NCBI RefSeq assembly: GCF_007655135.1
Contig: NC_045129.1
Location: 20,930,274-20,994,273 of the forward strand
Origin: Punica granatum
Lineage: Eukaryota > Streptophyta > Magnoliopsida > Myrtales > Lythraceae
Length of the DNA stretch: 64,000 bases
Reading direction: 5' to 3'
Shown here: positions 4,352 through 48,584 of the stretch, one piece after another
How the letters are laid out: every line of letters starts with the position of its first letter
Position numbering within the stretch: position 1 is the first letter of the stretch
Position numbers and translations under genes: made by a program
The notes under the pieces: generated by a model
Databases searched by the model: none
Seen by the model: only the letters and a program-made list of their open reading frames with translations
What the model was told of the DNA's origin: nothing

Positions 4352-4383
4352 GGTTTAATGTTTATAAACAAACTGATGTAATG
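4352..4383 (-). repeat. Upstream arm of the ORF1-flanking inverted repeat (element A)
   Basis: The two blocks, complementary to those at 2685-2759, are separated by only 3 nt here. The arm lies about 22 nt upstream of the ORF1 ATG, between the 5' UTR and the GTAAGGATGG start context. Confidence 0.85.
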
Positions 4384-7927: not shown

Positions 7928-9531
7928 GGCAAAGCTAATGGCACAATTAGCAAAAGCAAGTGCTCTTAACCCCCATGCTTAGAAAATATCAAGCCTCATC
8001 CTCTTCCATTGCATTAATGAAGAAGAGATAAGACATTGATGAGCATTGATGAGCATTGATGGAGGCTTTAGTGTTCTCTTCAAACTCTTGGATATTTTCA
8101 AGCAAGAGTGCAAGTTGGCTTCTTGCATTGAAGAAGAAGAAGAAGCTTCTAGAGTAAAGGGTGACTCATCTTGAATAGCCCGTGGGTCCCACGACCGAAG
8201 AGGAGAAACCGGGAAAAAGCTCGGGTCTCGATTGATCGCGCATTCGAAGTTCGCGGTTTGAATTGAACGTCGAATTATCGATATACGCGAGGAAATGGAT
8301 TTAATGAGTCCGAGATTGGCATTTTCCGTGAGAAATTGCCAAATGTCTGTATGAGGCTTGGAAGCCGGTTTTGCTCCTTTTATGCATTCAGAGCGAGGTT
8401 ACCCACTTCTGACAGCATATCTTGTATCTGCATCCCACGTCGGTCATTTTGACATAAATTGTCAAATTACGTGAACCCTTGTCCCTTAAACCGGTAAATA
8501 CAAATATGGAGCCGGAGATGTCCTAGGAGGCCGAAACTGGATTTCTCAGATTGCTTTCTGAGTTTCTTGGGCGATCCGGAGATTACTGCGATCTCTGTTT
8601 GCTGAGATTGGGCCTCTAAGGATATGAAAAGTGCATCCGAGACCCTTAAAGCACTGCTCGAGGGGTCTAGATGAGTTGTGTGACTCATTTGGACAATTCC
8701 ACATTGAGCCTTGAGAAGGCTAGCATTGTGTAAGGTAAGCATCCGGCGTCAAGTTTCCCCAAAGAGGACCTCCGGATATGGATTTTCACTGAAAATGGCC
8801 TTTTGTGCCCCTCGGAGGTTACTCGGGAAACCGTGAAGGGTTTTGCTGTCTGTTTTGCCCAATTGCGAATGTCCGCTGGAGTTTTCAGGGCAATGTAGTG
8901 TGAACTTCGTTTGCCGTAATTCCATCAGACCAGTCTCCGGTTACGCTCTTCCGAAGAAGGGTATGCCCGTTTTGTCATTCGGAAGTCATTCAGAGTGTCT
9001 GTATGGCTTCTAAAAGACAATATGAAGCATTGCTCGTGCTCTGTATGATTGAGGGGCATGGCCGCATCTGATATTTGGAATTAACTTTTCTTCGAGAAAC
9101 CGGCATTTTTGGACTTCCACTGAAAAGTTGTCTGTATACAGAAAGTTGTTCTGTATAGAGCAGATGATTTGCAAAATGCCTTTGGGGACACTTTTCATCT
9201 GTTTGGCATTGGAGTGGATTTTTGGGGTCCAATATTGGCTGTCTTCCGATGATCGAGCGAACTATCGGAAAATAGAACTGTCCGTGTGATATACTGAAAA
9301 TGCCGGTTTTGGATATTGCTGAGCTCTCTAGTCACTCTATTACCCTTTGGTGACCCCTGGAGTCCTTCTGTCATATGCATGTGTCATTTGCCCGATTTTG
9401 CCGACTTGAGGATGAATAGTGATTTTCTGCTCTGTTAAGTCGTTTTTCTGTATTCTGCTCAGGTTGTGGCTTGGATCATTGCTGATATCATCGTTTGGAA
9501 AGGTGAGCCAAAATGGGGTGCTGACACCCCC

Positions 9532-11707
9532 TCATCCTTTATCTAACAGTACGCCGGCAATTGTTAGGGTGCATGTTAGGGCAAGAGGAGGAATCCACAC
9601 ACACGGAGCACGCAATCTATTATCTAAGCAAAAAATTCACCGAAGAAGAGTCCAATTATCCTGAAATCGAAAAGATGTGCTGTGCATTGGTGTGGGTCAT
9701 GCAAAGGCTCCGACAATACACGCTCTATCATACGATTCGCTTGCTGTCAAAGGCGGACCCCCTAAAGTATTTACTTGATAACCTGTCCTCCATGCGGAAC
9801 ATTGCTAAATGGCGTTGTCAGTTAACGGAGTACGACATTGAGTACGTATCCCGCACCTTGGTTAAGGGCCAAGCGATCGCAGATCATTTGGCAGAATTCC
9901 TAATTGAAGACAGCACGCCGATCAATCCCGACTTCCCGGACGAGGGAATTCTCCAAGTAGATGGTGAAGAGGAGAAGCCAGGGTGGAAGATGTACTTTGA
10001 CGGTGCCGTCAATTCCACAGGATCCGACATCGGCGCAGTACTGATAGCCCCGGACGGACGCTATTACCCAGTGGCGGCAAAAGTTGACTTCCCATGCACC
10101 AATAATGTGGCCGAGTACGAGGCATGCATCCTCGGCCTACAAGCGGCGATCGACTTCAAGGTAAAGGAGTTAGAAGTATTCGGCGATTCTATGCTCACAA
10201 TCTTCCAAACATTGGGGCAGTGGAAGACAAAGGATGCGAAGCTGGTGCCATACCACGAGTACCTCGAAGGGTTAACGGAGAGCTTTGAGGACATCTCCTT
10301 CACCTACACCCCGCGCATGAAGAATCAATTCGCAGATGCACTTGCGACGCTCACTTCCATGGTAAGAATCACATGGGAAAACCTTATCGAGCCCCTCGAG
10401 ATTGAGATAGCCAAAGGCCCGCCCCACTGTAATGCAATCGAAGCGACTGAGGCGAAGCCGTGGTACGAAGACATTAAGAACTTCTTACGAACTGGCCAAT
10501 ATCCCCCATTCGCCGATCGTTGCGATCGAAAGACGCTCAGGCGCCTCGTGATACACTATTTCTGAACGGCGAGATACTTTACCGCCGTTCCTTCGACTCC
10601 ATACTCCTCCGATACATCGACGGACATGAATCACGACGTCTCATGGAGGAAATGCACGGAGGAAATTGCGGATCCCATATGAACGGTCTCATGCTCGCTA
10701 AAAAGATTATGCGCTTAGGCTACTATTGGTCCACCATGGAGACCGATTGCGTGAAGCACGTTAGGCATTGCCACCGATGCCAGGTTTACGCAGATCAGGT
10801 CAAGGCGCCTCCCAATGAGCTACGCCCTATGACGGCCTCGTGGCCTTTTTCAATGTGGGGGATGGACGTGATCGGCCCGATCGACCCCAAGGCATCTAAC
10901 GGGCATTTGTTTATCTTGGTGGCGATTGACTACTTCACCAAATGGATCGAGGCAATAACGCTCGCGTCGGTCACTGCAAAAGCCCTGGCCCGTTTTCTCA
11001 AGCGTGACGTCATTGCCCGATACGGGGTCCCGGCAACAATCGTCACAGACAACGCCAAGAACTTGAACAACAAAATCATTGACGAGCTTTGTGCGCAATT
11101 CAAAGTCCAACATCGCAATTCCACTCCATACCGTCCCCAAATGAACGGCACGGTGGAAGCTGCGAACAAGAACATCAAAAAGATCATTCAAAAAATGACA
11201 GTGAACTACAAGGACCGGCACAAGATGCTCCCTTACGCGCTCTTGGCATACCGAATGTCCATCCGGACCTCCACGGGGGCAACTCCATATTCCTTGGTCT
11301 ACAGCATCGAAGCGGTCCTCCCGATTGAGGTTGAAATCCCCTCCATGAGGATCCTCGCCGAAACCGAACTTGAAGAGGCAGAATGGGCAAAACAGCGTTA
11401 TGAGCAGTTGAACCTCATCGACGAAAAGAGACTGAAAGCATTATGCCACAGACAGTGCTACCAACAAAGGATGGCTCGAGCATTCAACGCAAAGGTCCGC
11501 CACCGCGAATTCAATCCCGGTGACCTCATTTTGAGGAAGGTCTTACACGTTACATCGGACTCTCGGGGAAAGTTCTCATACAAATAAGATGGACCCTTTG
11601 TTGTTAAGGAGACTTTCTCCGGAGGAGCCATCATTTTGAGCGACATGGATGGGATCGAAAACGCGCTCTCGGTCAATGCTGATGCCATCAAAAAGTATTA
11701 CCCATGA
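9532..11707 (+). pseudogene. pol fragment of element C (RNase H, aRNH, integrase), decayed
   Basis: Starts inside the first RNase H, where element A interrupts the gene, and corresponds to B pol from about residue 420 to the end. In order: RNase H1 remainder; archaeal-type RNase H with YFDGAVN, AEYEA, FGDS and FADALA catalytic blocks; integrase zinc-binding His/Cys block; integrase core with WGMDVIGP, VTDNAK and NGTVEAANK (D, D, E); C-terminal tail. A one-base deletion near 10560 shifts the frame, and a TAC-to-TAA nonsense change at 11585-11587 truncates the last 40 codons. The original stop is at 11705-11707. The frame resumes cleanly after each lesion, so this is a relatively recent pseudogene. 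It retains the TVRRQ replacement in RNase H1 that is also seen in B. Confidence 0.93.
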
Positions 11708-18219: not shown

Positions 18220-19818
18220 TGTCAGCACCCCATTTTGGCTCACCTTTCCAAACGATGATATCAGTAATGATCCAAGCCACAACCTGAGCAGAATACAGAA
18301 AAACGACTTAACAGAGCAGAAAATCACTATTCATCCTCAAGTCGGCAAAATCGGGCAAATGACACATGCATATGACAGAAGGACTCCAGGGGTCACCAAA
18401 GGGTAATAGAGTGACTAGAGAGCTCAGCAATATCCAAAACCGGCATTTTCAGTATATCACACGGACAATTCTATTTTCCGATAGTTCGCTCGATCATCGG
18501 AAGACAGCCAATATTGGACCCCAAAAATCCACTCCAATGCCAAACAGATGAAAAGTGTCCCCAAAGGCATTTTGCAAATCATCTGCTCTATACAGAACAA
18601 CTTTCTGTATACAGACAACTTTTCAGTGGAAGTCCAAAAATGCCGGTTTCTCGAAGAAAAGTTAATTCCAAATATCAGATGCGGCCATGCCCCTCAATCA
18701 TACAGAGCACGAGCAATGCTTCATATTGTCTTTTAGAAGCCATACAGACACTCTGAATGACTTCCGAATGACAAAATGGGCATACCCTTCTTCGGAAGAG
18801 CGTAACCGGAGACTGGTCTGATGGAATTACGACAAACGAAGTTCACACTACATTGCCCTGAAAACTCCAGCGGACATTCGCAATTGGGCAAAAAAGACAG
18901 CAAAACCCTTCACGGTTTCCCGAGTAACCTCCGAGGGGCACAAAAGGCCATTTTCAGTGAAAATCCATATCCGGAGGTCCTCTTTGGGGAAACTTGACGC
19001 CGGATGCTTACCTTACACAATGCTAGCCTTCTCAAGGCTCAATGTGGAATTGTCGGAATGAATCACACAACTCATCTAGACCCCTCGAGCAGTGCTTTAA
19101 GGGTCTCAGATGCACTTTTCATATCCTTAGAGGCCCAATCTCAGCAAACAGAGATCGCAGTAATCTCCGAATCGCCCAAGAAACTCAGAAAGCAATCTGA
19201 GAAATCCAGTTTCGGCCTCCTAGGACATCTCCGGCTCCATATTTGTATTTACCGGCTTAAGGGACAAGGGCCCACGTAATTTGACAATTTATGTCAAAAT
19301 GACCGACGTGGGATACAGATACAAGATATGCTGTCAGAAGTGGGTAACCTCGCTCTAAATGCATAAAAGGAGCAAAACCAGCTTCCAAGCCTCATACAGA
19401 CATTTGGCAATTTCTCACGGAAAATGCCAATCTCGGACTCATTAAATCCATTTCCTCGCGTATATCGATAATTCGACGTTCAATTCAAACCACGAACTTC
19501 GAATGCGCGATCAATCGAGACCCGAGCTTTTTCCCGGTTTCTCCTCTTCGGTCGTGGGACCCACGGGGTATTCAAGATGAGTCACCCTTTACTCTAGAAG
19601 CTTCTTCTTCTTCTTCAATGCAAGAAGCCAACTTGCACTCTTGCTTGAAAATATCCAAGAGTTTGAAGACAACACTCAAGCCTCCATCAATGCTCATCAA
19701 TGCTCATCAATGTCTTATCTCTTCTTCATTAATGCAATGGAAGAGGATGAGGCTTGATATTTTCTAAGCATGGGGGTTAAGAGCACTTGCTTTTGCTAAT
19801 TGTGTCATTAGCTTTGCC

Positions 19819-19825
19819 TATAAAT
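19819..19825 (+). promoter_or_regulatory. Putative TATA box of B 5' LTR
   Basis: TATAAAT in GCCTATAAATGGCCC. The following 60 bases are pyrimidine-rich (CTTCTCCTCTTACAC), a typical start region. The position is conserved in all LTRs of the window. It would drive the genomic RNA. Confidence 0.6.
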
Positions 19826-20186
19826 GGCCCAAAAGTGATTAAGATAATCACTTCTCCTCTTACACAATCTCTCCAACCTTTCTCTTTCAAGAAATCCTCT
19901 CAAACTCCATAGCCAAGAACACTCAAGAACCAGAAAACTTCAGCACTTAGAAGGAAAAGAAAAGAAAACCGAAAAGATCAAAAGAGAGCCTTGAGTTCTT
20001 AAGTCGGAAGCCGATGTTCATCATCCCGACTTAAGCTCAAAATTTCTCAAACTTCATATCCCACTCATTTTGGACCCATGGAGTTCATTGGTGAAATTGG
20101 TTTTTCCATTTGAAGTCTTCAAATTATTGTTTCAGGTCAAATAGTGCATTTCGGGTGAAATCGCTACTCTCGGGTGAATAGTGACC

Positions 20187-20367
20187 CGCCAGCGCCAGCC
20201 GCGCGCACGCCCGCGCACGCCAGCGCCAGCCGCGCGCACGCCCGCGACGCCCGCCCGCGCGCGCACGCCCGCGCCGCCGCGCACGCCCGCCCGCGCCCGC
20301 GCACGCGCGCCCGCGCGCCGCCTGCACGCCCGCGCGCCTGCGCACCCGCGCACGCCGCGCCTCCCGT
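20187..20367 (+). repeat. GC-rich low-complexity tract in B 5' LTR (181 bp)
   Basis: CGCGCACGCCC-type irregular repeats with an internal duplication of a block containing AGCGCCAGCCGCGCGCACGC. The same tract is 144 bp in the 3' LTR of this element and 121 bp in A, so it is the most length-variable part of the LTR. Confidence 0.85.
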
Positions 20368-22035
20368 GCATTCCAGCCGCATTCCCCGTGCACCTAGCTC
20401 CCCGAACGTGCATCCTTTGCACCCGAGCATCCTTCCAAGCGTTCAACCGAGTCACCCGACTCTCGAACACTTCCCCGACTCTTTCCTCGTATCCCGAGGC
20501 TAGGTAAATCACTCTTGACTTAGAGGAGTTAGGGCTTTTTATATTTTTGCATGGCTATGGAGTACTATGGTATTTTATGCATACTTAACTTGCAAGACTT
20601 AACTTTTATGCAATTTTATGTTATATTATGCATGTGTATTACCTTATAACTTGCTAGCATGTCGGAAAAAGGTTTGGATTGTTGTTTGGAAGACCATCCC
20701 GACCCGGAAATGGCAAGTGAGCTCACGGCCAAGTCTCTAAATGGGATGGCCGAGACTTGAGTTGCTCTTTTCGGGTTAAGATTGGTCTCCTTAGCCCGAT
20801 CCAAGTTATTTTCCGAGTTTATTTTGTTGTTCTTGCATGCATGAAGCCGGTATTATTTTATCGATTCCTTAAATAACATGTTTGTGAATGTTTGCATGTT
20901 TAAATGAGTTAATCAAATCATGGTAATACCGGCTTTTGTCAAAACGTGTTATTCATGATGTTTGATGTTTGAGCATGCGAAAAATGATTAAACCAAGACA
21001 AGGAAATTCTTTGTGATTTGAATCGAGCCATGAGAGTATTCGGCCATCTTTGACAAGGTGAAGCCGAGGGCTTCTTGGCCCTTTTTGGATCAAGAATGAT
21101 TTCCTTATTTCGAGTTTAATTCATTTCTCGGATTGTACGAAAGTGTAATTTCGATATTTCCACGATTCCCATGTTAAAACATCGATTACATGTCTTTTCA
21201 ACAAAACATGCATGGATTCGGTATCGTTGACTCATTCGGGTCCATTCGGTTACGAGGGTAGTTTCGGTCATTGGACCAAATATCCTCGATCCTTACGGAT
21301 TCGTGTTGGTCGCCGAATCACGAATCGTTTTCACAATTAATATTCGGCAATAACCTTAAGCATTAATTCCACGAACGGGTTAATCGGGACGTTCACACGG
21401 TTAATTCATTCCATTTAAATAACTTTGCACGAATTGGACATTAATTTGTAACTCGCGTCGACGAATTACAAAACGGTGTTAATGCCCTTTTCAAAACCCT
21501 CATACTTTCAAATCCTTATTGTGTTGTTCTCCTTTTCTGAAAACAATTTTCAAATCAAGGGCAAGAACATCATTTCGTGATTCGCCGACATCCTAGCGCA
21601 GTTTAAGATGTCAGTTGGGTATTCTGTATCAAAATACAGTTATCGGACTAATCATTTCACTCGACTTAACCAAATCCTAGAAAATGGTTAGGCGGAACTC
21701 TAGGTTCCAAATCTAGAGTCAAAATACAAGTTTGGATCAATTCAGTGGTAATTCAGTGTCACAACACCGAATCACTATAAAAGCAATCTACACACATGAT
21801 ATTCGATTCTCTTTTCCAAATTTCCAACAAAAGCAGAATACTAAAACATTGGCACGTGTTTGATTGCTTAGCATATGGCATTTGCTTGCAAAAACACTTT
21901 TGGATTAATAAACTTGTTAATCCACGTACATTCGGTAAATACAAAACACCTTGTCTGTTATTAACATGTTGCGTGTTATCTTTCCGCACTTGTTTGCCAT
22001 ACGGGTCGAGCTTGATCCCTAGGCCGAATAATATT

Positions 22036-22106
22036 AGGGTTCAACACCCTAATCATCGAGCACAGGGTTCAACGCCCTAATCAACACTCACAGGGTCCAA
22101 CGCCCT
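22036..22106 (+). repeat. Three-copy 28-bp hairpin repeat in B 5' LTR
   Basis: AGGGTTCAACACCCT, AGGGTTCAACGCCCT and AGGGTCCAACGCCCT lie at 22036, 22064 and 22092, spaced by AAT-CA-rich linkers, period 28. Each has AGGG/CCCT arms around a short loop. It is also present in A and in the B 3' LTR. Confidence 0.8.
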
Positions 22107-22875
22107 ATTCAGTGAGAGCGTCCATTGAATTTCAGTTCTTCGGTCTTTTTCCCTAAACTCACGGTGAGTTAGAGTGGAATAATAACCGAACGCGAGTCGA
22201 CTGGAATTCGGCCATTTGTAATTTGTATTTATTGTTTTCGAGAGCATTGTAAGGATTTTATTTTGTACATTTATTCTGTAAGAATTCCAGTCGGTGAGCG
22301 AACGGTCCGAGAGTCGAATTAATCGAATCGGTCTAATGCTTGCCCAGATACAAGTAAATCCAAGAACTCGCGGTTCTGGTTCACGCAGGGATTCAACCTC
22401 CATGGTTCGATGAACTGTAACGCAAGATTGTGAACCAATTCCCCGACACACGGGTTTACTTCTCTCTCAGCTTCTCCACCGACATCGTTTAATTCATCGA
22501 AGTTACGGTGTCAAAACGTGTGAGCCGAGTGCAGCCTAATTCATGCGGTAAATAAAACAAAAATGCAAGCCTAGCAAACCAGAGTACCGAAAGGGCGTGC
22601 GGGATATAGGCCCGCACGTAACATGAACCCCCGAACACGGATTTTCCGGTTCCGCACAGATCAATGCCTTAACGACAAACTAGGTGTTCCATACCCCTAG
22701 ACTCGGGTAACTTATCCGCCCTCGACCTACGGGTCGTAAAATGATAAGTGGCGACTCCTTCTCTCACGCGTGTCCGTCACGCGTCCCCACGGGAAGGTGG
22801 ACACTCCCAAGCCGCGCGATCCAAAAGCGCGCAATGCGGGCCCCGACGAGAGTCCACATTCGGGTCCGTACAGCT

Positions 22876-22893: not shown

Positions 22894-23473
22894 CATACTT
22901 AGTGGATTCAGGCTCGATCCGTTTGCTTGCTTGCATGTTTATTTATCGCTTTCTGTACATTTACTTTTCTTGCACATTTACTTTTCTGCACTCGCATTGC
23001 ATCATTCTAGTGGATTTAGGTACCAAATGCCTGAAATCCCACGGGCACCAATCTAGGAAGCTAGGTTAGTCAGAGGTTCCGAGTAAGGGAACGGATCGAG
23101 TTGGCTCCGCCACCGAACTGGCCCCCAAAGATCCTCGCTCGATTTCAAGGAATTGATCCCCTTGAATCGGGAGCCCCCATCCCTAGTTAGTGGTTTTCCC
23201 AGTAGAACACTGAAACCATGCATAAACAGGGACCGTCATGCTGGACCAAAACAAACCTCATGCCGTCAACCGACCCAAAGTCCGGTCTTTGAGTCGGCCC
23301 CTAGTTTTCTTTTAGGCGGGCCTTTTGTTGTTTTTCTACAATGAGCGATGTACATTGTAATAGATACAGATATACTTTACTTTTCTGCACTGCATGCATG
23401 TTTTCAAAACAACCTAGGACATTACATCAGTTTGTTTATAAACATTAAACCAACATCTCTCCATTAGGTAAGG
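22894..23473 (+). other. 5' UTR of element B between PBS and ORF1
   Basis: No gene. Two tandem words, ACATTTACTTTTCTTGC and ACATTTACTTTTCTGC, lie at 22957-22989 and a related TTTACTTTTCTGCACTGC near 23376. The block around 23079-23180 (GAGTAAGGG; GGCCCCCAAAG in part; TTTCAAGGAATTGATCCCC) is conserved in element D at 48835-48930. The last 55 bases hold the inverted-repeat arm and a GTAAGG donor-like site. Confidence 0.75.
23420..23451 (+). repeat. Upstream arm of ORF1-flanking inverted repeat (element B)
   Basis: CATTACATCAGTTTG (23420-23434), 3 nt, then ATAAACATTAAACC (23438-23451). Both blocks are perfectly complementary to blocks at 25042-25116, on the other side of ORF1. The arm ends 22 nt before the ORF1 ATG. 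Confidence 0.92.
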
Positions 23474-24966
23474 ATGGATCGCTCGCATCCCTGTCTTAGG
23501 CTCGATGTCATCATCATGCCATCTGCGGACATTACTCGCCTTTGGAATACATTCCGCCCAGTTGACCGTGCATTCCTCCGGCTCATCATAGGAGACTTGC
23601 CATTACTCGCTGATTCCCCCATTGACTGGACCCTACTCAGAACTGCTATTAGTTTTTGGGACACTCAGCGGGCCGTATTCAGTTTTCAGGGGTCAGAGCT
23701 AGCTCCCACAGTAGAGGAGTACGCGGCACTCATTCAGCGACCCATGCCGACCCTCGACATCGTGGCGCCCAACCAGTTCGCCACGATACAGAGTAGACTC
23801 GCCATCCTCTTAGATCTCCGCGACGAAGAAATTCGTCTTGAACTTCAGCATGGAGGGGAGCATAGCGTTAGGACCGCATGGCTCATAGACTTCATACATG
23901 TTCGTTCTCTCAATGCCAGGGGAGAATCGTACCAACGTGACGCCTGTCATGGGTTCCTCTTGCTCATCTTTGGGACCATCCTATTCCCCCACTCGTCGAA
24001 CCTCATAAGGCACTCGCCCAAGTCATCCTCCAAGTGGTAGGAGGCCGTAGCTATGTAGAAGCCGTCTTGGCTGAGACCATTCGGTCTCTTGACTATGTAC
24101 GAGAGGTTCGACGTGGTAGAATGAGAGGAGCTCCGCATCTTCTTCAGATTTGGCTCCTCGCACACATCAGGCCGTTCTGCTCATCACATCCCTTTTCCTA
24201 CATCACTGACGAGCGTTCGCTCATCGCTCGCCTACTTCAAGTGTTTCGGCCCTCCGATCGCGACTACACCGATTGGATCCAGTTCTTCAAGAGACTCACC
24301 CCGGCACAGTTTTTGTGGGCTGCTCGCTGGAATCCCGGTGGACCCATGACCATTGGATGCCCTTCAGTCATAGGACTTCCTCTGATCAGTCACTTAGGGA
24401 GCACACTTGTTTTCCCAGCCCGAGTCATCAGACAACTTGGCGGCTTACAGGATATTCCTAGAGAGGCAGATCGCACTCCACACCGCTTCATGTGGACGGA
24501 TATTATAACTTTACTTCCAGATAGGGTTCTGCGGATTAGAGAAGTTCAACGTTTATGGAACACGCGCACCGTTCAAGAGCTCTATTTCCCGGAGCACCCT
24601 ACCGACGACGAACGAGCTTTCTCAGCTACCGTAGCATATGTGGCGCAATTCCATCCACAGGGACTCACACCCGTTCGTCGACGACATTTGCCGCGGATTC
24701 CTCACGCACCGCATGCAGACATTCCAGACGCGGAGAGCTCAGTCCAAGGAGTCATGCGCACAGAATTGCAGTCCATCAGAGAAGAGCGAGATCGACTCCG
24801 TTGTGAGCTTGTGGATATTCGCGCAGAACTCACTGATCACAGAGAGCTTCAGAGCGAGTTGGCTCAGATTCGCGCACGCATAGCGAACCAAGACAGGGAG
24901 ATAGCGCGTTTGAGCGCTATGCTGGACCGAGCGCGGGCAAAAGCTCGCAAGGTCTTTCATCCTTAG
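23474..24966 (+). pseudogene. ORF1 of element B (DUF7745/plant-mobile-like), one frameshift
   Basis: ATG at 23474 in the strong context GTAAGGATGG. The first frame runs to about 24010; a 4-nt deletion relative to A near 24010 (A keeps GACG) moves the rest into another frame, which is open to the stop at 24966. Undamaged, it would encode about 498 residues. Visible blocks: DWTLLRTAISFW near residue 50, VEEYAAL, the hydrophobic HGFLLLIFGTILFP, LQIWLLAHIRPF, a glycine-rich WNPGGPM...ISHLGS segment, and a C-terminal charged coiled coil. Function unknown. Tat/Ogre elements characteristically carry an ORF here, and a diverged homologue exists in D. It has no catalytic signature that I can name. GTAAGG just before the ATG may also act as a splice donor. 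Confidence 0.85.
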
Positions 24967-25271
24967 GTTTAGTTTGTTAACGCTTTTGCCCCGCACCGGA
25001 CCCACGCAGCGTTCACTCAGCTACGGGTTGTAATAGTTGGCGGTTTAATGTTTATGTTTCCTTTTCAAACAGACTGTCTTTATAAATTATAGAATATGAA
25101 TCAAACTGATGTAATGGCATTAGTATTTTCAAACTTATGCACCTCATGCATTCATATACTGTCATCTATATTTTGAAGATAGTCAAAGCACTATAAGTAC
25201 ACTCATACACTTACGCATACAGGTACTAACAACTGGCGTCCCATCGATATCCGACTCGTGCACGAGTAAGG
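24967..25271 (+). other. ORF1-gag spacer of element B
   Basis: 305 nt, the same length as in A. Holds the downstream inverted-repeat arm, then an A/T-rich stretch, TACTAAC and the gag start context. No coding capacity. Confidence 0.7.
25042..25116 (+). repeat. Downstream arm of ORF1-flanking inverted repeat (element B)
   Basis: GGTTTAATGTTTAT (25042-25055) and CAAACTGATGTAATG (25102-25116), separated by 46 nt, pair with the arm at 23420-23451, where the gap is 3 nt. It lies 75 nt after the ORF1 stop. Weaker complementarity continues outward around the TTTTCAAA and ATGCA words. Confidence 0.92.
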
Positions 25272-28200
25272 ATGGCAGAAGACCAACAACCCGCCATTCT
25301 TGAACAGGATACTCCGCCAACGCCGATACATTCTCAAACACCACTGACGCAAGTTACATCACCTGTAATGCTCACGGACATATCTACAGCGCATTCAGGC
25401 GTCCCTATCGGACATCCTCCACCAACAGTACAGACGGCGTCCAACCTTGTGGAGTCCGCACGTTTTACTGCGTTAGAAGGAATGGTGAACCACTTGGCGG
25501 CCAACATGGCCACCAACATGACTGAGCTCATGGCCATGCTCAGGAATCAGAATCAGGCCTCATCGAGCTTTACTCCGCCTCTGGAGCATAGACCAATTGT
25601 CGATCCAAATCCAATGGTCACTCCAACCTTTGCTTCGGAGGCTGAAGACGCATCTTTCTCGGCAATGGCGTTTGCACCAACAGTCCATCCGATCAATGAT
25701 CCTTTACCGCCACCACCTGCTCCAACAGCAGTTCCGTTGCCACCAGCAGCTTTCTTATCCACGGACTCTACTATGCATGCGCTGCCACCGCTAACCGTGT
25801 CAATGCATCCTCCAATCTATACTGTGCCACCACCGACAGTTCCTCCGGTCACGATCGCACAGGCTCCTGTTTCCACTGCAGACCAATTTCCTTTCCAAAC
25901 TCCACAACCCCAAATAAGCTTTTCTTACCCTGCTCCACCGCCCCTAAACATTCCTCCCACTGAACCGGGCACGCCTACTCAGGCTGCCCCTCCAGCTCTA
26001 CCGACAAACGTTCCTCTCGAAGCGGAGAATGAACAGGAGAGGAGAATAAAGAGAATGGAGGAAACCATTCGAGCCCTCCAAGTAGGCAACCCCCGTTTCG
26101 ATTTCAGTGACAGTGACTGGAATCTCTTTCCAGGCATGCGGCTGCCCCCTAAGATCAAAATTCCAGAGTTCAAAAGATATGATGGGACCAGAGACCCTCG
26201 GCATCATCTCCGTCATTATCAGAGCAAAATGCTCTCATACTGGGATTATGAGGAATTCGTCATTCAGACTTTCCAAGATAGTCTTATGGGATCGGCGCTA
26301 GATTGGTTTATGACCCTGAAAGCCGGCGATGTCCCTACATGGACAGATCTTTCTCAGAAGTTCCTCGACCAGTATCGATTTTGTGCGGAAACACCTCCTA
26401 CCCTTCTCGATCTCAGCATGACAGAGATGAAGGAGGGTCAAGCTTTCGAAGCATACGCAACGGAATGGAGAGGAAGAGCAGCAAAGCACATTCCTCCAAT
26501 CACTGAGCGACAACAAGTTCAGCTGTTCCACTCCACACTCAGAGGCGCGTATTACTCACATCTCCTGGCTCATACTTCCTCCTTCTCGGACTTGATCGAG
26601 GCAGGAAAGAAGCTTGACATGGGTGTTAAGTTAGGAAGAATCGAAGGCCCATCAAAGAAGAAGGATGGAGAGACGTCAAAGAAGCAGACTGCTGGAACCT
26701 CCAGGAGAAGCAAAGACATGACTATTGGCGCCGTCAACTCCGGATATCAGGCTTCACAGCCGATTTCGGTGGACTATACTCCTGCATTACAGACTCCCCA
26801 GGCATATGCACATCCCGTGCATTATGTGCAGCCCTACCAAACATCGCAGGCTTATTTCCCAACCCCGCCAACTGTTATCCAGTCGCAACTTCCGCAACAG
26901 CATATTCCTGCTCAGGCTCAACAAGGTAGACCCCCGGCTTCGAGATCTCCTCAGTCGGTTCAACGTGCTCCAGCCCCCAGAACTTATCAGGACAAAGTTG
27001 CACAACCGCGTCCACGCAAGCAGTACACCACTTTACCAGCCCCTCTCTCTCACATATTCAGGCAGCTTCTTGCAGGCAACAAGATCAGAACAGAAGCGCC
27101 TGGTCCCAACTTTGACCCCGCAGTGCAGAATCAGAACTTACACTGTGAATTCCATCGGGGTGCTCCTGGTCATACCCTCGACAATTGCTGGACACTCCGG
27201 AATAAAATTCAGGAGTTGATCGACGCAAGGCAAATCTCCTTTAATGAAGTGAAGCCACCGAATGTCCGCGCAAACCCTCTCCCCGATCATGGATCAGGTT
27301 CAGGACCTTCTATCAACATGATCAGCATCGCTTCTATCAAAGAGGAAGAAGACGCGCAGAAGACCTCAATTCCCTTTATTGTCAATTATGCTCCGACAAA
27401 TGATGCATTTACATCTGACGTCCCATTCGTTATCGAGGTTCTTGCGAAGGAGCCATACCAAGACCGTCGAGTTCCCTGGGATTATGGGAATGAGGTTGCC
27501 AACATGGAGCATGAGATGAGTGCGATGGGCATCACGCGCTCAGGACGAGTTTATCAGGGTCCAGAGTCTACAGACAAAGGGAAAGCCCCTGTTATTACAT
27601 CCTCAGCCGTTCCAGAAGCCGTGCCAGTCTTTACAAAGAAGGTCACCGATCAAGAAGCGGAAGCTTTCATGAAAGTGATCAAGGCAAGTGAGTACAAAGT
27701 GGTGGAGCAAATGGGCAAGTCACCCGCCCATATCTCGCTCCTCGCGTTGCTTTTGAGCTCCGAGCCGCATCGGAATGCTTTGTTGAAAGTCCTCACCGCG
27801 GCACAAGTCCCAAAAGACACGGCACCGGATAATATCGAGCAGACTGTTAGTTCAATCTTCTCGAATCAGATATCCTTTGCAGATGATGAGCTTCCATCCG
27901 AAGGTCAGGAACACTTACGGGCATTGCACATAGTCTGTAAGTGCAACAATCACATTGTTGGTCGAGTCATGATCGACAACGGCTCTGCTCTCAACGTTTG
28001 CCCCGTCTCCACACTGAAACAGATGAACGTGGACATGAGCCGCATCCGTGCAAGCAAGACCACTGTTCGAGCCTTTGATGGCTCTAGGAGAGAAGTGAAT
28101 GGAGAAATCGATCTCCTGATCGATGTGGGTCCTTGCTCATTCTCTGTCACCTTTCAGATCCTCGAGATACCCAATGCTTTCAGTCTCTTGCTCGGGAGAC

Positions 28201-28892
28201 CATGGATTCACGCCGCCGGCGCTGTTCCTTCGTCGCTGCACCAGAAACTGAAGTTCTTCGTCGAAGGTAAGCTTATCACTGTCAACGGTGAGGAAGACTA
28301 CGCAGTCTACAAGGAGACAGCCGTTCCTTACATCAGCATTGGAGAAGATCAGAATCTTCCCTTTCACTCTTTCGACACGATTTCCGTAATCCGAGACTAC
28401 GGAAAAGTCGGTCCATCACGAACCGATCGTATGATTGGAAAGGTTCTGTTGAAGAACGATTACGTCCCCGGAACTGGACTTGGGGCACGTGCACAGGGAA
28501 TCCTTCGACCGATTGAAATGGAGGAATACCGCAATAGGAGGGGACTTGGCTTTCGCCCCTCCTGTCATGAGATCGTGCAGTCTCGCCGTGGAAAGCATCT
28601 ACACCGCCTTGCTGTACATTACGAAAAGCTCTTCAGGGGCATTCTGGTTCCACCACTCTCACAGTTTTTTGCAGCACCACCGCAGATCATGGGAGGCACC
28701 TCCGATAGCCCAATCACTGAAACAGATGACTTCTCTTCGGATGCAGTTGAAGCGTTTTTGGCTTTGCCAGCCATATATGCCGTCACTGAGGAGACATCTT
28801 CCAGGGTTCATATCCGCCCTGTACGGGAGGATGAGGAGCTTACCAACTGGACTTCAGTTCCGCTCTACTGGGCCGTAGTTGCCGATGTGTAA
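25272..28892 (+). CDS. gag-pro: gag-pro polyprotein of element B
   Basis: 1206 codons, fully open. Residues 1-280 are rich in proline, glutamine and alanine. Residues about 283-460 are the retrotransposon gag domain (PKIKIPEFKRYDGTRDP, LDWF, WTDLSQKF, FHSTL). A C-x2-H-x5-H-x4-C knuckle (C625, H628, H634, C639) probably binds RNA. The aspartic protease has its D-N-G-S active site at residue 902 and a second hydrophobic LLLGRPWI block; D-N-G replaces the usual D-T/S-G. After the protease, residues about 1058-1095 are G-patch-like (GTGLGARAQG, RRGLGF). Gag forms the particle and the protease matures the polyprotein. The frame ends at a TAA that lies inside a putative intron (28889-29080), so spliced RNA would continue in frame into pol. 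The start is chosen at the first ATG, with G at +4 and A at -3. Confidence 0.96.
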   Translation: MAEDQQPAILEQDTPPTPIHSQTPLTQVTSPVMLTDISTAHSGVPIGHPPPTVQTASNLVESARFTALEGMVNHLAANMATNMTELMAMLRNQNQASSSFTPPLEHRPIVDPNPMVTPTFASEAEDASFSAMAFAPTVHPINDPLPPPPAPTAVPLPPAAFLSTDSTMHALPPLTVSMHPPIYTVPPPTVPPVTIAQAPVSTADQFPFQTPQPQISFSYPAPPPLNIPPTEPGTPTQAAPPALPTNVPLEAENEQERRIKRMEETIRALQVGNPRFDFSDSDWNLFPGMRLPPKIKIPEFKRYDGTRDPRHHLRHYQSKMLSYWDYEEFVIQTFQDSLMGSALDWFMTLKAGDVPTWTDLSQKFLDQYRFCAETPPTLLDLSMTEMKEGQAFEAYATEWRGRAAKHIPPITERQQVQLFHSTLRGAYYSHLLAHTSSFSDLIEAGKKLDMGVKLGRIEGPSKKKDGETSKKQTAGTSRRSKDMTIGAVNSGYQASQPISVDYTPALQTPQAYAHPVHYVQPYQTSQAYFPTPPTVIQSQLPQQHIPAQAQQGRPPASRSPQSVQRAPAPRTYQDKVAQPRPRKQYTTLPAPLSHIFRQLLAGNKIRTEAPGPNFDPAVQNQNLHCEFHRGAPGHTLDNCWTLRNKIQELIDARQISFNEVKPPNVRANPLPDHGSGSGPSINMISIASIKEEEDAQKTSIPFIVNYAPTNDAFTSDVPFVIEVLAKEPYQDRRVPWDYGNEVANMEHEMSAMGITRSGRVYQGPESTDKGKAPVITSSAVPEAVPVFTKKVTDQEAEAFMKVIKASEYKVVEQMGKSPAHISLLALLLSSEPHRNALLKVLTAAQVPKDTAPDNIEQTVSSIFSNQISFADDELPSEGQEHLRALHIVCKCNNHIVGRVMIDNGSALNVCPVSTLKQMNVDMSRIRASKTTVRAFDGSRREVNGEIDLLIDVGPCSFSVTFQILEIPNAFSLLLGRPWIHAAGAVPSSLHQKLKFFVEGKLITVNGEEDYAVYKETAVPYISIGEDQNLPFHSFDTISVIRDYGKVGPSRTDRMIGKVLLKNDYVPGTGLGARAQGILRPIEMEEYRNRRGLGFRPSCHEIVQSRRGKHLHRLAVHYEKLFRGILVPPLSQFFAAPPQIMGGTSDSPITETDDFSSDAVEAFLALPAIYAVTEETSSRVHIRPVREDEELTNWTSVPLYWAVVADV

Positions 28893-32965: not shown

Positions 32966-33635
32966 TTAGGGGACCTTCGGCAGCTCGACCACGAAATGAC
33001 AGCTACATTCAGCATGCAGCGGCAACAAATAGTGGTTTGACAGTCTTCGATGCAAGCAAACTCTCTTTTACTCTCAGAGCATGAGACACGTTTCGACATA
33101 CAGTCGAATCTTTGTATCCTTGATTTGGAGGATCCCAAAGAATCCCCCTATACCCTTATGCAAATTCTACAGGTCATGCCTGTTCTGTAAAAAGCCTTTC
33201 TTGTCAAATCACAAACCTAGCGGGATACGACCATCCCTTTAAATGGTCATCAAGTTCAAATCCCCAAAGCATTATTATTCAGACTTCTTTCTACATCTTC
33301 ATTATGGCTGTAGAGTAGAACTGACAACTACTGTTAGCTCCCATGGTTCTATATGCAGGAACGAAGATGTGAACCTCGGAAGAAGTCTTTCTTTGATGAA
33401 TGCATGTCTGCCTTATGCTAAGGACCACAACTAAAATCCAAGGAGAAGTCTTCAGGATAATACTCCATGCATTCAATCGCATCACAATCAGTTGGCAAAC
33501 AATGAAACATTCTGCCACTACATCGATTGCAACACGGACAAGCTCAATGACGGAGGAAGCACAATGATTCCTTCCACAGCTCACGCAACTCCCCAACGTT
33601 TGCATTTACTTTTTGCAATGCATCCCATGCAATTT
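32966..33635 (+). other. Middle 3' UTR of element B, no gene
   Basis: 32966-33150 is conserved with element C 12132-12310. From there to 33590 I see no coding frame or repeat. The last 45 bases already contain single copies of GCATTTACTTTTTGCA and AATTTACTTTTCTGC, words related to the spacer of the following array. Confidence 0.65.
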
Positions 33636-34180
33636 ACTTTTCTGCATTTCGGGTACGTCCCGACTACTTTTCCGCATTTTGGGTACGTCCCGACTACTTT
33701 CCCGCATTTCGGGTACGTCCCGACTACTTTTTCGCACTTCGGGTACGTCCCGACTACTTTTCTGCATTTCGGGTACGTCCCGACTACTTTTTCGCATTTC
33801 GGGTACGTCCCGACTACGTTTCCGCATTTCGGGTACGTCCCGACAACTTTTCCCGCATTTCGGGTACGTCCCGACTACTTTTCCGCATTTCGGGTACGTC
33901 CCGACTACTTTTCCGCATTTCGGGTACGTCCCGACTATTTTCCGCACTTCGGGTACGTCCCGACTACTTTACTGCATTTCGGGTACGTCCCGACTACTTT
34001 TCTGCATTTCGGGTACGTCCCGACTACTTTTCCGCACTTCGGGTACGTCCCGACTACTTTTTCGCATTTCGGGTACGTCCCGACTACTTTTCCGCATTTC
34101 GGGTACGTCCCGACTACTTTTCCTGCATTTCGGGCACGTCCCGACTACTTTCCTGCACTTCGGGTACGTCCCGACTACTT
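33636..34180 (+). repeat. 30-bp minisatellite in element B 3' UTR (about 18 copies)
   Basis: The unit is TTCCGCATTTCGGG followed by TACGTCCCGACTACTT, 30 bp, with few substitutions. TCGGG-TACGT-CCCGA forms a 5-bp hairpin in every unit. Because 30 is a multiple of three, long open frames run through it on both strands; they are artefacts. It occupies the same place as the 32-bp array of C, with an unrelated core. Confidence 0.95.
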
Positions 34181-34310: not shown

Positions 34311-34397
34311 CAAATTGGGGTGCTTCTGAAGTCTTTGGCTGCATCCTCTACTCGAGCATGCAGTCAAAGAGGGGCAAGCTGTCAGCACCCCATTTTG
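34311..34397 (+). promoter_or_regulatory. PPT and two-tier inverted repeat at 3' LTR junction, element B
   Basis: Inner stem CTTTGGCTGCAT (34333-34344) / ATGCAGTCAAAG (34358-34369), loop CCTCTACTCGAGC. The PPT AAAGAGGGGCAAGC (34366-34379) begins in the stem. The outer arm CAAATTGGGGTGCT (34311-34324) is complementary at 13 of 14 bases to LTR bases 34384-34397. The PPT primes plus-strand DNA. Confidence 0.75.
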
Positions 34398-35978
34398 GCT
34401 CACCTTTCCAAACGATGATATCAGCAATGATCCAAGCCACAACCTGAGCAGAATACAGAAAAACGACTTAACAGAGCAGAAAATCACTATTCATCCTCAA
34501 GTCGGCAAAATCGGGCAAATGACACAGGCATATGACAGAAGGACTCCAGGGGTCACCAAAGGGTAATAGAGTGACTAGAGAGCTCAGCAATATCCAAAAC
34601 CGGCATTTTCAGTATATCACACGGACAGTTCTATTTTCCGATAGTTCGCTCGATCATCGGAAGACAGCCAATATTGGACCCCAAAAATCCACTCCAATGC
34701 CAAACAGATGAAAAGTGTCCCCAAAGGCATTTTGCAAATCATCTGCTCTATACAGAACAACTTTCTGTATACAGACAACTTTTCAGTGGAAGTCCAAAAA
34801 TGCCGGTTTCTCGAAGAAAAGTTAATTCCAAATATCAGATGCGGCCATGCCCCTCAATCATACAGAGCACGAGCAATGCTTCATATTGTCTTTTAGAAGC
34901 CATACAGACACTCTGAATGACTTCCGAATGACAAAACGGGCATACCCTTCTTCGGAAGAGCGTAACCGGAGACTGGTCTGATGGAATTACGGCAAACGAA
35001 GTTCACACTACATTGCCCTGAAAACTCCAGCGGACATTCGCAATTGGGCAAAACAGACAGCAAAACCCTTCATGGTTTCCCGAGTAACCTCCGAGGGGCA
35101 CAAAAGACCATTTTCACTGAAAATTCATATCCGGAGGTCCTCTTTGGGGAAACTTGACGCCGGATGCTTACCTTACACAATGCTAGCCTTCTCAAGGCTC
35201 AATGTGGAATTGTCGGAATGAATCACACAACTCATCTAGACCCCTCGAGCAGTGCTTTAAGGGTCTCAGATGCACTTTTCATATCCTTAGAGGCCCAATC
35301 TCAGCAAACAGAGATCGCAGTAATCTCCGGATCGCCCAAGAAACTCAGAAAGCAATCTGAGAAATCCAGTTTCGGCCTCCTAGGACATCTCCGGCTCCAT
35401 ATTTGTATTTACCGGCTTAAGGGACAAGGGCCCACGTAATTTGACAATTTATGTCAAAATGACCGACGTGGGATGCAGATACAAGATATGCTGTCAGAAG
35501 TGGGTAACCTCACTCTGAATGCATAAAAGGAGCAAAACCGGCTTCCAAGCCTCATACAGACATTTGGCAATTTCTCACGGAAAATGCCAATCTCGGACTC
35601 ATTAAATCCATTTCCTCGCGTATATCGATAATTCGACGTTCAATTCAAACCACGAACTTCGAATGCTCGATCAATCGAGACCCGAGCTTTTTCCTGGTTT
35701 CTTCTCTTCGGTCGTGGGACCCACGGGCTATTCAAGATGAGTCACCCTTTACTCTAGAAGCTTCTTCTTCTTCTTCAATGCAAGAAGCCAACTTGCACTC
35801 TTGCTTGAAAATATCCAAGAGTTTGAAGACAACACTCAAGCCTCCATCAATGCTCATCAATGCTCATCAATGTCTTATCTCTTCTTCATTAATGCAATGG
35901 AAGAGGATGAGGCTTGATAGTTTCTAAGCATGGGGGTTAAGAGCACTTGCTTTTGCTAATTGTGTCATTAGCTTTGCC

Positions 35979-35985
35979 TATAAAT
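35979..35985 (+). promoter_or_regulatory. Putative TATA box of B 3' LTR
   Basis: TATAAAT, identical in context to 19819-19825. From here transcription would run out into element D sequence. Confidence 0.5.
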
Positions 35986-36346
35986 GGCCCAAAAGTGATT
36001 AAGATAATCACTTCTCCTCTTACACACTCTCTCCAACCTTTCTCTTTCAAGAAATGCTCTCAAACTCCATAGCCATGAACACTCAAGAACCAGAAAACTT
36101 CAGCACTTAGAAGGAAGAGAAAAGAAAACCGAAAAGATCAAAAGAGAGCCTTGAGTTCTTAAGTCGGAAGCCGATGTTCATCATCCCGACTTAAGCTCAA
36201 AATTTCTCAAACTTCATATCCCACTCATTTTGGACCCATGGAGTTCATTGGTGAAATTGGTTTTTCCATTTGAAGTCTTTAAATTATTGTTTTAGGTCAA
36301 ATAGTGCATTTCGGGTGAAATCGCTACTCTCGGGTGAATAGTGACC

Positions 36347-36490
36347 CGCCAGCGCCAGCCGCGCGCACGCCCGCGCCCGCCCGCGCGCACGCCCGCGCAC
36401 GCCCGCGCCCCGCGCACGCCCGCGCGCCCCGCGCGCACGCCTGCATGTCCGCGCTCCTGCCCGCACCCCGCGCACGCCGCGCGCCTCCCG
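36347..36490 (+). repeat. GC-rich low-complexity tract in B 3' LTR (144 bp)
   Basis: Counterpart of 20187-20367, shorter by 37 bp, and rearranged within otherwise about 99% identical LTRs. Confidence 0.85.
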
Positions 36491-38998
36491 TGCATTCCAG
36501 CCGCATTCCCGTGCACCTAGCTCCCCGAACGTGCATCCTTTGCACCCGAGCATCCTTCCAAGCGTTCAACCGAGTCACCCGACTCTCGAACACTTCCCCG
36601 ACTCTTTCCTCGTATCCCGAGGCTAGGTAATTACTCTTGACTTAGAGGAGTTAGGGCTTTTTATATTTTTGCATGGCTATGGAGTACTATGGTATTTTAT
36701 GCATACTTAACTTGCAAGACTTAACTTTTATGCAATTTTATGTTATATTATGCATGTGTATTACCTTATAACTTGCTAGCATGTCGGAAAAAGGTTTGGA
36801 TTGTTGTTTGGAAGACCATCCCGACCCGGAAATGGCAAGTGAGCTCACGGCCAAGTCTCTAAATGGGATGGCCGAGACTTGAGTTGCTCTTTTCGGGTTA
36901 AGATTGGTCTCCTTAGCCCGATCCAAGTTATTTTCCGAGTTTATTTTGTTGTTCTTGCATGCATGAAGCCGGTATTATTTTATCGATTCCTTAAATAACA
37001 TGTTTGTGAATGTTTGCATGTTTAAATGAGTTAATCAAATCATGGTAATACCGGCTTTTGTCAAAACGTGTTATTCATGATGTTTGATGTTTGAGCATGC
37101 GAAAAATGATTAAACCAAGACAAGGAAATTCTTTGTGATTTGAATCGAGCCATGAGAGTATTCGGCCATCTTTGACAAGGTGAAGCCGAGGGCTTCTTGG
37201 CCCTTTTTGGATCAAGAATGATTTCCTTATTTCGAGTTTAATTCATTTCTAGGATTGTACGAAAGTGTAATTTCGATATTTCCACGATTCTCAAGTTAAA
37301 ACATCGATTACATGTCTTTTCAAAACAAAACATGCATGGATTCGGGTATCGTTGACTCATTCGGGTCCATTCGGTTACGAGGGTAGTTTCGGTCATTGGA
37401 CCAAATATTCTCGATCCTTACGGATTCGTGTTGGTCGCCGAATCACGAATCGTTTTCACAATTAATGCATTCGGCACAATAACCTTAAGCATTAATTCCA
37501 CGAACGGGTTAATCGGGACGTTCACACGGTTAATTCATTCCATTTAAATAACTTTGCACGAATTGGACATTAATTTGTAACTCGCGTCGACGAATTACAA
37601 AACGGTGTTAATGCCCTTTTCAAAACCCTCATACTTTCAAATCCTTATTGTGTTGTTCTCCTTTTCTGAAAACAAATTTTCAAAACAAGGGCAAGAACAT
37701 CATTTCGTGATTCGCCGACATCCTAGCGCAGTTTAAGATGTCAGTTGGGTATTCTGTATCAAAATACAGTTATCGGACTAATCATTTCACTCGACTTAAC
37801 CAAATCCTAGAAAATGGTTAGGCGGAACTCTAGGTTCCAAATCTAGAGTCAAAATACAAGTTTGGATCAATTCAGTGGTAATTCAGTGTCACAACACCGA
37901 ATCACTATAAAAGCAATCTACACACATGATATTCGATTCTCTTTTCCAAATTTCCAACAAAAGCAGAATACTAAAACATTGGCACGTGTTTGATTGCTTA
38001 GCATATGGCATTTGCTTGCAAAAACACTTTTGGATTAATAAACTTGTTAATCCACGTACATTCGGTAAATACAAAACACCTTGTCTGTTATTAACATGTT
38101 GCGTGTTATCTTTCCGCACTTGTTTGCCATACGGGTCGAGCTTGATCCCTAGGCCGAATAATATTAGGCTTCAACACCCTAATCATCGAGCACAGGGCTC
38201 AACGCCCTAATCAACACTCACAGGGTCCAACGCCCTATTCAGTGAGAGCGTCCATTGAATTTCAGTTCTTCGGTCTTTTTCCCTAAACTCACGGTGAGTT
38301 AGAGTGGAATAATAACCGAACGCGAGTCCACTGGAATTCGGCCATTTGTAATTTGTATTTATTGTTTTCGAGAGCAGTGTAAGGATTTTATTTTGTACAT
38401 TTATTCTGTAAGAATTCCAGTCAGTGAGCGAACGGTCCGAGAGTCGAATTAATCGAATCGGTCTAATGCTTGCCCAGATACAAGTAAATCCAAGAACTCG
38501 CGGTTCCGGTTCACGCAGGGATTCAACCTCCATGGTTCGATGAACTGTAACGCAAGATTGTGAACCAATTCCCCGACACACGGGTTTACTTCTCTCTCAG
38601 CTTCTCCACCGACATCGTTTAATTCATCGAAGTTACGGTGTCAAAACGTGTGAGCCGAGTGCAGCCTAATTCATGCGGTAAATAAAACAAAAATGCAAGC
38701 CTAGCAAACCAGAGTACCGAAAGGGCGTGCGGGATATAGGCCCGCACGTAACATGAACCCCCGAACACGGATTTTCCGGTTTCGCACAGATCAATGCCTT
38801 AACGACAAACTAGGTGTTCCATACCCCTAGACTCGGGTAACTTATCCGCCCTCGACCTACGGGTCGTAAAATGATAAGTGGCGACTCCTTCTCTCACGCG
38901 TGTCCGTCACGCGTCCCCACGGGAGGACACTCCCAAGTCGCGCGATCCGAAAGCGCGCAATGCGGGCCCCGACGAGAGTCCACATTCGGGTCCGTACA

Positions 38999-41048: not shown

Positions 41049-41300
41049 GGCTCCAGCGACCATTGTAATGCCATTCTTACGTCCTCTTTTCGTCCTCAAA
41101 CTTGCCTGGTTGTCACGCCTGAGAATGGTGTGCGCGAATGATGCTTACCTTTGGTAAAGATGCCTACATAAAGAAGAGTGCGAGAGTGAGAATGTACAGC
41201 ATAAATAAGAGGTGCGTTGCGTAATTGAAAGTGCGATGTATAATTGGAAGTGCATTGTATAACTGAAAAGCGCATTGCATAATCAAAAGTGCTTTGCATA

Positions 41301-42020
41301 ATTGAAAGGTGCATTGCGGAGACGGAGATGTGCACTGCATTCCGGAGCAGGGGCACGCTAATTGAAATGTGCATTGCTGAAATGAAAATGTGCACTGTAT
41401 CCCGGAGGAGGCGCACGCTAATTGAAAAGTGCATTGCGGACATGAAAATGTGCACTACATTCCAGAGAAGGCGCACGCTAATTGAAAAGTGCATTGCTGA
41501 AATGAAAATGTGCACTGCATCCCGGAGGAGGTGCACGCTAATTGAAAAGTGCATTGCGGAAATGAAAATATGCACTGCATCCCGGAGGAGGTGCACGCTA
41601 ATTGAAAAGTGCGTTGCGGAAATGAAAATGTGCACTGCATCCCGGAGGAGGTGCACGCTAATTGAAAAGTGCGTTGCGGAAATGAAAATGTGCACTGCAT
41701 CCCGGAGGAGTTGCACGCTAATTGAAAAGTGCGTTGCGGAAATGAAAATGTGCACTGCATCCCGGAGGAGTTGCACGCTAATTGAAAAGTGCGTTGCGGA
41801 AATGAAAATGTGCACTGCATCCCGGAGGAGGTGTACGCTAATTGAAAAGTGCATTGCCGAAATGAAAATGTGCACTGCATCTCGGAGGAGGTGCACGCTA
41901 ATTGAAAAGGGCGTTGCGGAAATGAAATGTGCACTGCATCCCGGAGGGGGTGCATGCTAATTGAAAAGCGCGTTGCGGAAATGAAAATGTGCACTGCATC
42001 CCGGGGAAGGTGCACGATAA
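41301..42020 (-). repeat. 60-bp minisatellite in element D 3' UTR (12 copies)
   Basis: The plus-strand unit contains GCACGCTAATTGAAAAGTGC, ATTGCGGAAATGAAAATG and TGCACTGCATCCCGGAGGAG, period 60, with few substitutions in the middle copies and decayed ends. Two GTGCAC words in adjoining parts can pair as a 6-bp stem. Frames of 220-266 codons on both strands arise from the period and are not genes. Confidence 0.95.
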
Positions 42021-47021: not shown

Positions 47022-47093
47022 CATCGCATTAGGGAACAAATGAGCATTGCCGTGGAAAGCGACAATCCTAGGCTTAGGGCCCCGATAACTATC

Positions 47094-48566: not shown

Positions 48567-48584
48567 CCCTTACCAAGATGAAAG

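Follow-up and report, generated by a model that had tools for sequence, protein, structure and literature searches.

A long-range stem around the extra open reading frame of Ogre/Tat-type retrotransposons in Punica granatum, a possible bridge between the sites of an optional intron

Long-range pairing that bridges splice sites is known from the intron zippers of yeast. Distant complementary boxes that join splice sites or loop out sequence are also described in the accessible portion of PMC8052449. Plant long terminal repeat (LTR) retrotransposons are known with both spliced and unspliced RNA pools (accessible text of PMC3735527 and PMC6317226). In BARE1, 104 nt are spliced out at the end of gag to give a gag-only message (PMC3735527), and the transcripts of Ogre elements, 57% of which carry a plant mobile domain (PMD), are partly spliced between gag-pro and the region for reverse transcriptase (RT), ribonuclease H (RH) and integrase (INT) (PMC6317226). 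Described here is a predicted long-range RNA stem enclosing the extra open reading frame (ORF), ORF1, of Ogre/Tat-type retrotransposons of Punica granatum. The analysis centers on a window of 64,000 nucleotides, the whole stretch of DNA under study, from contig NC_045129.1 (positions 20,930,274 to 20,994,273 of the forward strand), in which three such elements, A, B and D, are found. Comparison of the sequences indicates that the stem is kept by pairing while its arm letters change between blocks of element families, and conserved donor-like and acceptor-like sites, new here, enclose ORF1. With a probability of roughly 0.5, ORF1 occupies an intron whose splicing is optional, with the stem serving as a bridge between the splice sites.

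Element B, on the forward strand, is an LTR retrotransposon of the Ogre/Tat type. Its coding region is flanked by the long LTRs typical of that group (18220-22872 and 34380-38998, 97.8% identical), and its pol domains follow the order RVT_1, RT_RNaseH, RVT_3 (577-695), H2C2 and rve, which is the Ty3-gypsy order with, between RH and INT, the additional RNase H-like domain that marks Ogre/Tat. ORF1 (23474-24966), positioned 5' of gag and divided into two overlapping frames, matches DUF7745 above the cut-off in both pieces and the PMD only below it, and provides the PMD-type ORF of the group. The gag-side ORF (25272-28892) carries a G-patch match near its C-terminus and is the first ORF past the predicted splice junction. 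The resemblance to Ogre/Tat extends over RT, RH, the second RNase H-like domain, INT, the long LTRs and the PMD-type ORF, and would take in the partial splicing known in Ogre, but neither a stem around the extra ORF nor splicing that removes it is mentioned in the accessible text of PMC6317226. Likewise, BARE1 is a plant LTR element with a gag message made by splicing, but a stem or an upstream ORF is not mentioned in the accessible text of PMC3735527. Element A, on the reverse strand, is a near copy of B, with 99.5% identity over the 2.1 kb compared, and its ORF1 (4329-2838) is broken into two overlapping frames as in B; other genomic ORF1 copies, unlike these two, are single-frame. The ORF1 of element D (47094-48566, reverse strand) contains two internal stops, and no gag or pol relative is found downstream of it within the window. 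Identity between the ORF1 proteins of B and D is 43% in the first 178 residues, 54% in the following 76 and 36% in the last 239 columns.

The stem of element B consists of two helices. The outer one, H1, is formed by 23420-23434 and 25102-25116 (15 of 15 positions paired), and the inner one, H2, by 23438-23451 and 25042-25055 (14 of 14), the arm letters being CATTACATCAGTTTG / CAAACTGATGTAATG and ATAAACATTAAACC / GGTTTAATGTTTAT. These are the two fully complementary blocks across ORF1 that were pointed out in a preliminary description of this DNA. Three nucleotides separate the 5' blocks and 46 the 3' blocks, the 5' arm ends 22 nt before the ATG, and the 3' arm begins 75 nt after the stop. Element A has the same arms (5', 4369-4383 and 4352-4365; 3', 2746-2759 and 2685-2699; all on the reverse strand), as the preliminary description noted, but at 99.5% identity these are not independent of those in B. 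Element D, again on the reverse strand, has arms of its own. Its H1 pairs 48604-48619 with 46948-46963 over 16 positions, two of them G-U, and its H2 pairs 48584-48602 with 47004-47022 over 19 positions with one mismatch and some G-U pairs. The different arm sequence in D had been recognized correctly, within ranges wider than the actual arms, and the geometry is nearly that of B as had been proposed, except that in D the 5' blocks lie 1 nt apart and the 3' blocks 40 nt apart, the 5' arm stops 17 nt short of the ATG and the 3' arm follows the stop by 71 nt, rather than by 3, 43, 20 and 73 nt, respectively.

When scored as chains of complementary segments, the flanks of B and of D each reach 29, against maxima of 20 and 19, respectively, in 300 dinucleotide shuffles each. 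When the two elements are crossed, the upstream flank of B scores 14 with the downstream flank of D, and the reverse combination scores 6. Minimum free energy folds of 1.75-2.4 kb contain the stem (26 of 29 pairs in B and 33-34 of 34 in D) with a mean pair probability of 0.94-0.98. In seven elements folded over ∼1.9 kb, the region of the 5' arm pairs with the 3' flank in every case, with means of 0.67-0.89. In the L021 and L009 families, conserved letters of the ORF1 flanks are complementary (TTTCAAAATTA with TAGTTTTGAAA or close) and would add a third, outermost short helix.

An alignment of B with D reveals a conserved frame around replaced arms. The 40 nt that border the 5' arm on its outer side (23380-23419 in B, which includes a short ORF of seven codons at 23394-23417) align with z = 5.5, and the corresponding 40 nt beyond the 3' arm (25117-25156, GCATTAG...TTTTCAAA) with z = 5.4; in neither case did any of 2000 shuffles reach the observed score. 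The stretch between the inner arm and the ATG is somewhat above shuffles (z = 2.8, 13 of 2000). In contrast, no similarity above shuffles is seen in the four arm segments (z from -1.5 to -0.2), in the segment that leads from the stop to the arm (z = -0.6) or in the insert that separates the 3' arms (z = 0.1). With outer flanks alike and arms unlike, the frame is homologous in B and D, and its arms, though replaced, still pair.

The pattern was followed through the 320 Mb host assembly by a search with the PF24924 profile, which yielded at least 118 matches, scored out of 1717 candidates. Loci were obtained for 50 of the 118 (30 loci and then 20 further regions), and 10 small flank pairs, picked from 83 places, were added. 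Since the ORF1 matches used were the best-scoring ones, the sample is biased toward intact ORF1. Elements L001-L008 and L042, for which the sequence stopped short of the 3' flank or too close to it, were left out before counting, and 61 elements with both flanks and a placed ATG, including A, B and D, were available for scoring; L073/L074, which lacks GTRAG before the ATG, stands outside the arm scoring and is counted below as the single donor failure. The element's own flanks reach a chain score of at least 21 in 59 of the 61, as compared with none of 305 shuffled flank pairs (maximum 20). The two below the threshold are L012 (19) and L056 (14), the 3' flank of which has been replaced by other sequence. 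The preliminary description had staked its case on complementary flanks recurring in further ORF1-bearing elements, and they do.

Swapping the flanks of 20 elements in all combinations separates them into two blocks, one B-like (WB, L055, L058, L040 and L050) and the other, with the remaining 15, C/D-like. The 150 swaps between blocks score 12-18, save for four that involve the 3' flank of L050 (22 with L069 and L075, 20 with L059 and L061). Within the B-like block L050 scores 15-22 with the others and the remaining pairs 21-29; within the C/D-like block the swaps range from 12 to 32. All stem data come from one species. At least 120 ORF1 protein matches, all those listed, are from Punica granatum, scans of viral contigs and genome contigs with the ORF1 protein revealed no relative, and a single relative from another source (P0143, jgi) was encountered at the protein level only. 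A search for gag in the 47 loci that have 1 kb or more of sequence after the stop gave no match in the 1.0-1.3 kb past ORF1 for 17 of them. In L009, L018, L053, L054 and D, ORF1, the stem and the splice-like sites are present with no gag match in the stretch examined, and several gag-less elements carry an ORF1 without stops. Such ORF1-bearing elements are apparently non-autonomous.

Covariation was assessed without a supplied structure by running RNAalifold on a MAFFT alignment of 45 unique flank pairs from 50 elements, and 27 long-range pairs forming both helices were returned. For the null model, the substitutions in each column were dropped again at random onto the branches of the ORF1 tree. 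Elements L059-L078 entered neither the RNAalifold run nor the two-block tree test, mis-anchored L012 was excluded from the latter, and L056 from all covariation work. Across both blocks (44 sequences, 300 simulations), canonical pairing is 0.964 as compared with 0.625 under the null (standard deviation 0.063, maximum 0.814), a value that no simulation attained. Doubly changed pairs number 17 of 27 versus 8.9 expected (reached once), extra pair types 40 versus 22.9 (maximum 32), and the G statistic is 376 versus 241 (reached once). These figures favor the structure to some degree, as it was derived from the same sequences. When the C/D block is taken by itself (46 unique out of 52), pairing is again retained above the null (0.973 versus 0.809, 0 of 500 simulations) and extra pair types lie weakly above it (18 of 500), but double changes do not (9 of 42 pairs versus 6.6, 79 of 500); the case for compensation therefore rests mainly on the contrast between blocks. 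The central claim of the preliminary description, namely an RNA stem under selection with ORF1 in its loop, is supported by the paired flanks in 59 of 61 elements and by this tree-aware retention of pairing, and the covariation that it called for is seen over both blocks in pairing retention, though double changes within the C/D block do not exceed the null.

Between the stem and the ATG of ORF1 lies a donor-like motif. In B it reads TAG|GTAAG (23465-23472, forward strand, last predicted exon base 23467; rank 1 of 83 GTs) and in D TTG|GTAAG (48569-48576, reverse strand, last predicted exon base 48574). GTRAG is present at this position in 61 of 62 elements, as GTAAG in 60 of the 61 and as GTGAG in L058, an A-to-G change of the kind that splice donors tolerate. 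The motif lies 2 nt from the ATG in 53 elements and 1 nt in eight. It served to place the ATG in L059-L078 and A, and those 10 donors are thus not independent; among the 51 elements whose ATG was placed without it, all have it. The site ranks first or second among 80-106 GTs in each of the 12 elements scored. A helix between the donor and a CTTTCC motif 3' of ORF1, hinted at by RNAalifold, was inconsistent in seven full folds, and donor sequestration of that kind was dropped.

Downstream of the stem, an acceptor-like YAG|G site occurs in 56 of 61 elements. In B it is CAG|GTACTAACAACTGGCG (25220-25222, forward strand), which precedes the gag ATG by ∼50 nt and ranks second of 32 AGs, and in D CCATTCCCCATTGCAG|GAAACC (46527-46529, reverse strand; rank 1 of 38). 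The site takes two forms. Where a gag relative is present (30 loci plus A and B) it is YAG|GTRYTAACAACTGGCG or close in 30 of 32, and where none is found (17 loci plus D) a CATTGCAG|GAAA-type site behind a pyrimidine tract is seen in 15 of 18, with gag-less L011 carrying the gag-type site for a total of 16. Of the elements not searched for gag (L050, L051 and nine small flank pairs), 10 of 11 have the gag-type site. The pattern required C or T before the AG, and AAG or GAG is found there in none of nine unmatched elements; L030, L010, L037 and L054 were entered by eye. The AG is kept through small indels in L041 and L065. The gag-less form, with its strong pyrimidine tract, ranks first in all four cases scored. 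Taken together, the donor-like and acceptor-like sites form the pattern that would be expected of 5' and 3' splice sites enclosing ORF1.

Their placement relative to the stem suggests how a bridge might operate. The 5' arm ends 16 nt (B) or 10 nt (D) before the donor-like motif, which immediately precedes the ATG of ORF1, and the acceptor-like site follows the 3' arms by ∼105 nt in B and ∼420 nt in gag-less D. Pairing of the arms would fold away ∼1.6 kb with ORF1 and bring donor and acceptor close together, such that in B the distance between them would fall from ∼1.75 kb to little more than 100 nt. The unspliced RNA would serve both as genome and as the message for ORF1, the first ORF past the stem, and in the spliced RNA gag would be the next long ORF; in B the gag ATG is the first AUG after the predicted junction. 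We infer that splicing occurs at these sites, that it is promoted by the stem and that the spliced RNA gives rise to gag. As in the pairings of PMC8052449, distant complementary segments would join sites, but here, as compared with the accessible part of that report, the setting is a retrotransposon, one arm falls in a predicted exon, the loop holds a full ORF, and the arm letters are replaced between families. A fuller version, to which somewhat less than an even chance is given, is that an extra gene sits in a spliceable intron with the long-range stem guarding the choice between ORF1 and gag, that the arms turn over while staying complementary so that each block has private arms with little cross-pairing, and that the same device operates in gag-less, apparently parasitic elements with ORF1.

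Several observations weigh against an optional intron bridged by the stem. Searches of the genome with joined flanks for intron-less copies of two families gave no match to the full query among the 40 scored for each (861 and 218 candidates); the best matches stop at or near the junction (21-84 of 84 at 90% and 32-93 of 93 at 98%). The absence of such copies is neutral if the spliced RNA is not copied. Helices of the intron-zipper type lie inside introns, and the 5' arm here is predicted to be exonic. The distance from stem to acceptor differs about fourfold between B and D, and the gag-type acceptor ranks only 2-5 among 20-32 nearby AGs in eight elements. The matrices behind all of these ranks were rough; that for the donor was a plant matrix not trained here. 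Individual elements also depart from the pattern: the donor position of L073 reads GTAAA and the acceptor position of L077 reads TAC, L017 and L020 have lost the acceptor-like site by deletions, no such site was found in gag-less L044, and the flank of L056 has been replaced.

Other explanations of the stem must be considered. It could be a cis-acting structure of the genomic RNA, functioning in packaging, dimerization, stability or reverse transcription and split by ORF1, with the splice-like sites belonging to a separate splicing event or having some other role. In favor of this, B and D share a conserved leader outside the arms, and the apparently non-autonomous gag-less elements keep the stem as they would a packaging signal. 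These same elements, however, also retain ORF1 and both splice-like sites, and the conserved donor between stem and ATG and the conserved acceptor are left unexplained, which makes this explanation unlikely, though it is the most credible of the rivals. Ribosome shunting of the pararetrovirus type, in which a short ORF ends at the base of the stem and the ribosome jumps over ORF1 to start at gag, is less probable still and fits worse than the optional intron. In caulimovirids shunting depends on a short ORF that terminates ahead of the stem, on arm letters that are free to vary and on a landing site (accessible text of PMC5902531). The resemblance lies in a stable leader stem with unconserved arm letters and in upstream short ORFs, but here a 1.5 kb ORF fills the loop, the splice-like sites are conserved, which shunting does not explain, and the short ORF before the stem is not. 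The seven-codon ORF of B (23394-23417) ends 2 nt before the stem and was the first strong lead to shunting; short ORFs also end at the stem base in WA, L057, L055, L040, L069, L075 and L071; in L052 one stops 9 nt short of it. This amounts to only eight of 61 elements, apart from L052. Elsewhere the short ORF is missing, runs into the stem or ends further upstream: in the L021 and L009 families and in D it reads into the stem and stops at the H1/H2 junction or close to it, a position that is frequent among the C/D families, and none is present in the 110 nt before the ATG of L014, L019, L050, L051 and L058. It is on this account that shunting lost ground. In addition, two AUGs lie between the stem and the gag ATG in B, and the gag-less elements have no known landing ORF. 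Shunting is possibly accessory in some families.

The main alternative in the preliminary description, that the arms are a relic of the terminal inverted repeats of a DNA transposon that delivered ORF1, is strongly disfavored. The arms do bracket an ORF, the PMD/DUF7745 domain also occurs outside such retrotransposons, and the letters of the outer flanks are partly complementary as well. Yet ORF1 and the leader are homologous between B and D, so that a relic should have lost its pairing; instead of one ancestral pair of repeats in decay, there are arms unrelated between blocks, replaced and still paired inside a conserved frame. Least probable of all is back-splicing to a circular ORF1 RNA promoted by the arms. 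Inverted repeats flanking an exon can drive back-splicing (accessible text of PMC12093144), but the conserved sites, with the donor 5' and the acceptor 3' of ORF1, are in the order for its removal rather than its circularization as an exon, although no systematic scan for sites in the reverse order was made. Of the three mechanisms that the preliminary description offered as examples, splicing has thus gained independent support from the donor-like and acceptor-like sites, ribosome bypass is weakened by the lack of a suitable short ORF in most elements, and circular RNA formation is at odds with the order of the sites.

The remainder of the window holds further repeats and fragments. Directly upstream of the leader of D is a tandem array of ∼13 kb with a unit of ∼70 bp (48921-62348), followed by a gap of 100 N (62349-62448), and no 5' LTR of D is seen in the window. 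Pol fragments of other Tat-like elements, nested or broken insertions, lie at 9528-11704, adjoining the LTR of A, and at 62449-64000, following the assembly gap; relative to B they show 81% protein identity and 97% DNA identity. Shorter tandem repeats in or near the elements are located at 33635-34180 (30 bp), 41299-42033 (60 bp) and 45842-46304 (∼27 bp).

In the titles and abstract openings of the open literature no description of a stem around ORF1 was encountered; subscription papers on Ogre lie outside that scope, and absence from print is not established. Similarly, no account was found in the open literature of how an extra ORF placed before gag is expressed in plant retrotransposons. 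If the optional intron is correct, one element RNA would be switched between two messages by a stem, and the fast turnover of arms that nevertheless remain paired would provide a natural experiment in compensatory mutation. Elements without a gag match retain ORF1 along with the stem and the splice-like sites, which suggests that ORF1 is of enough use to them to be worth keeping.

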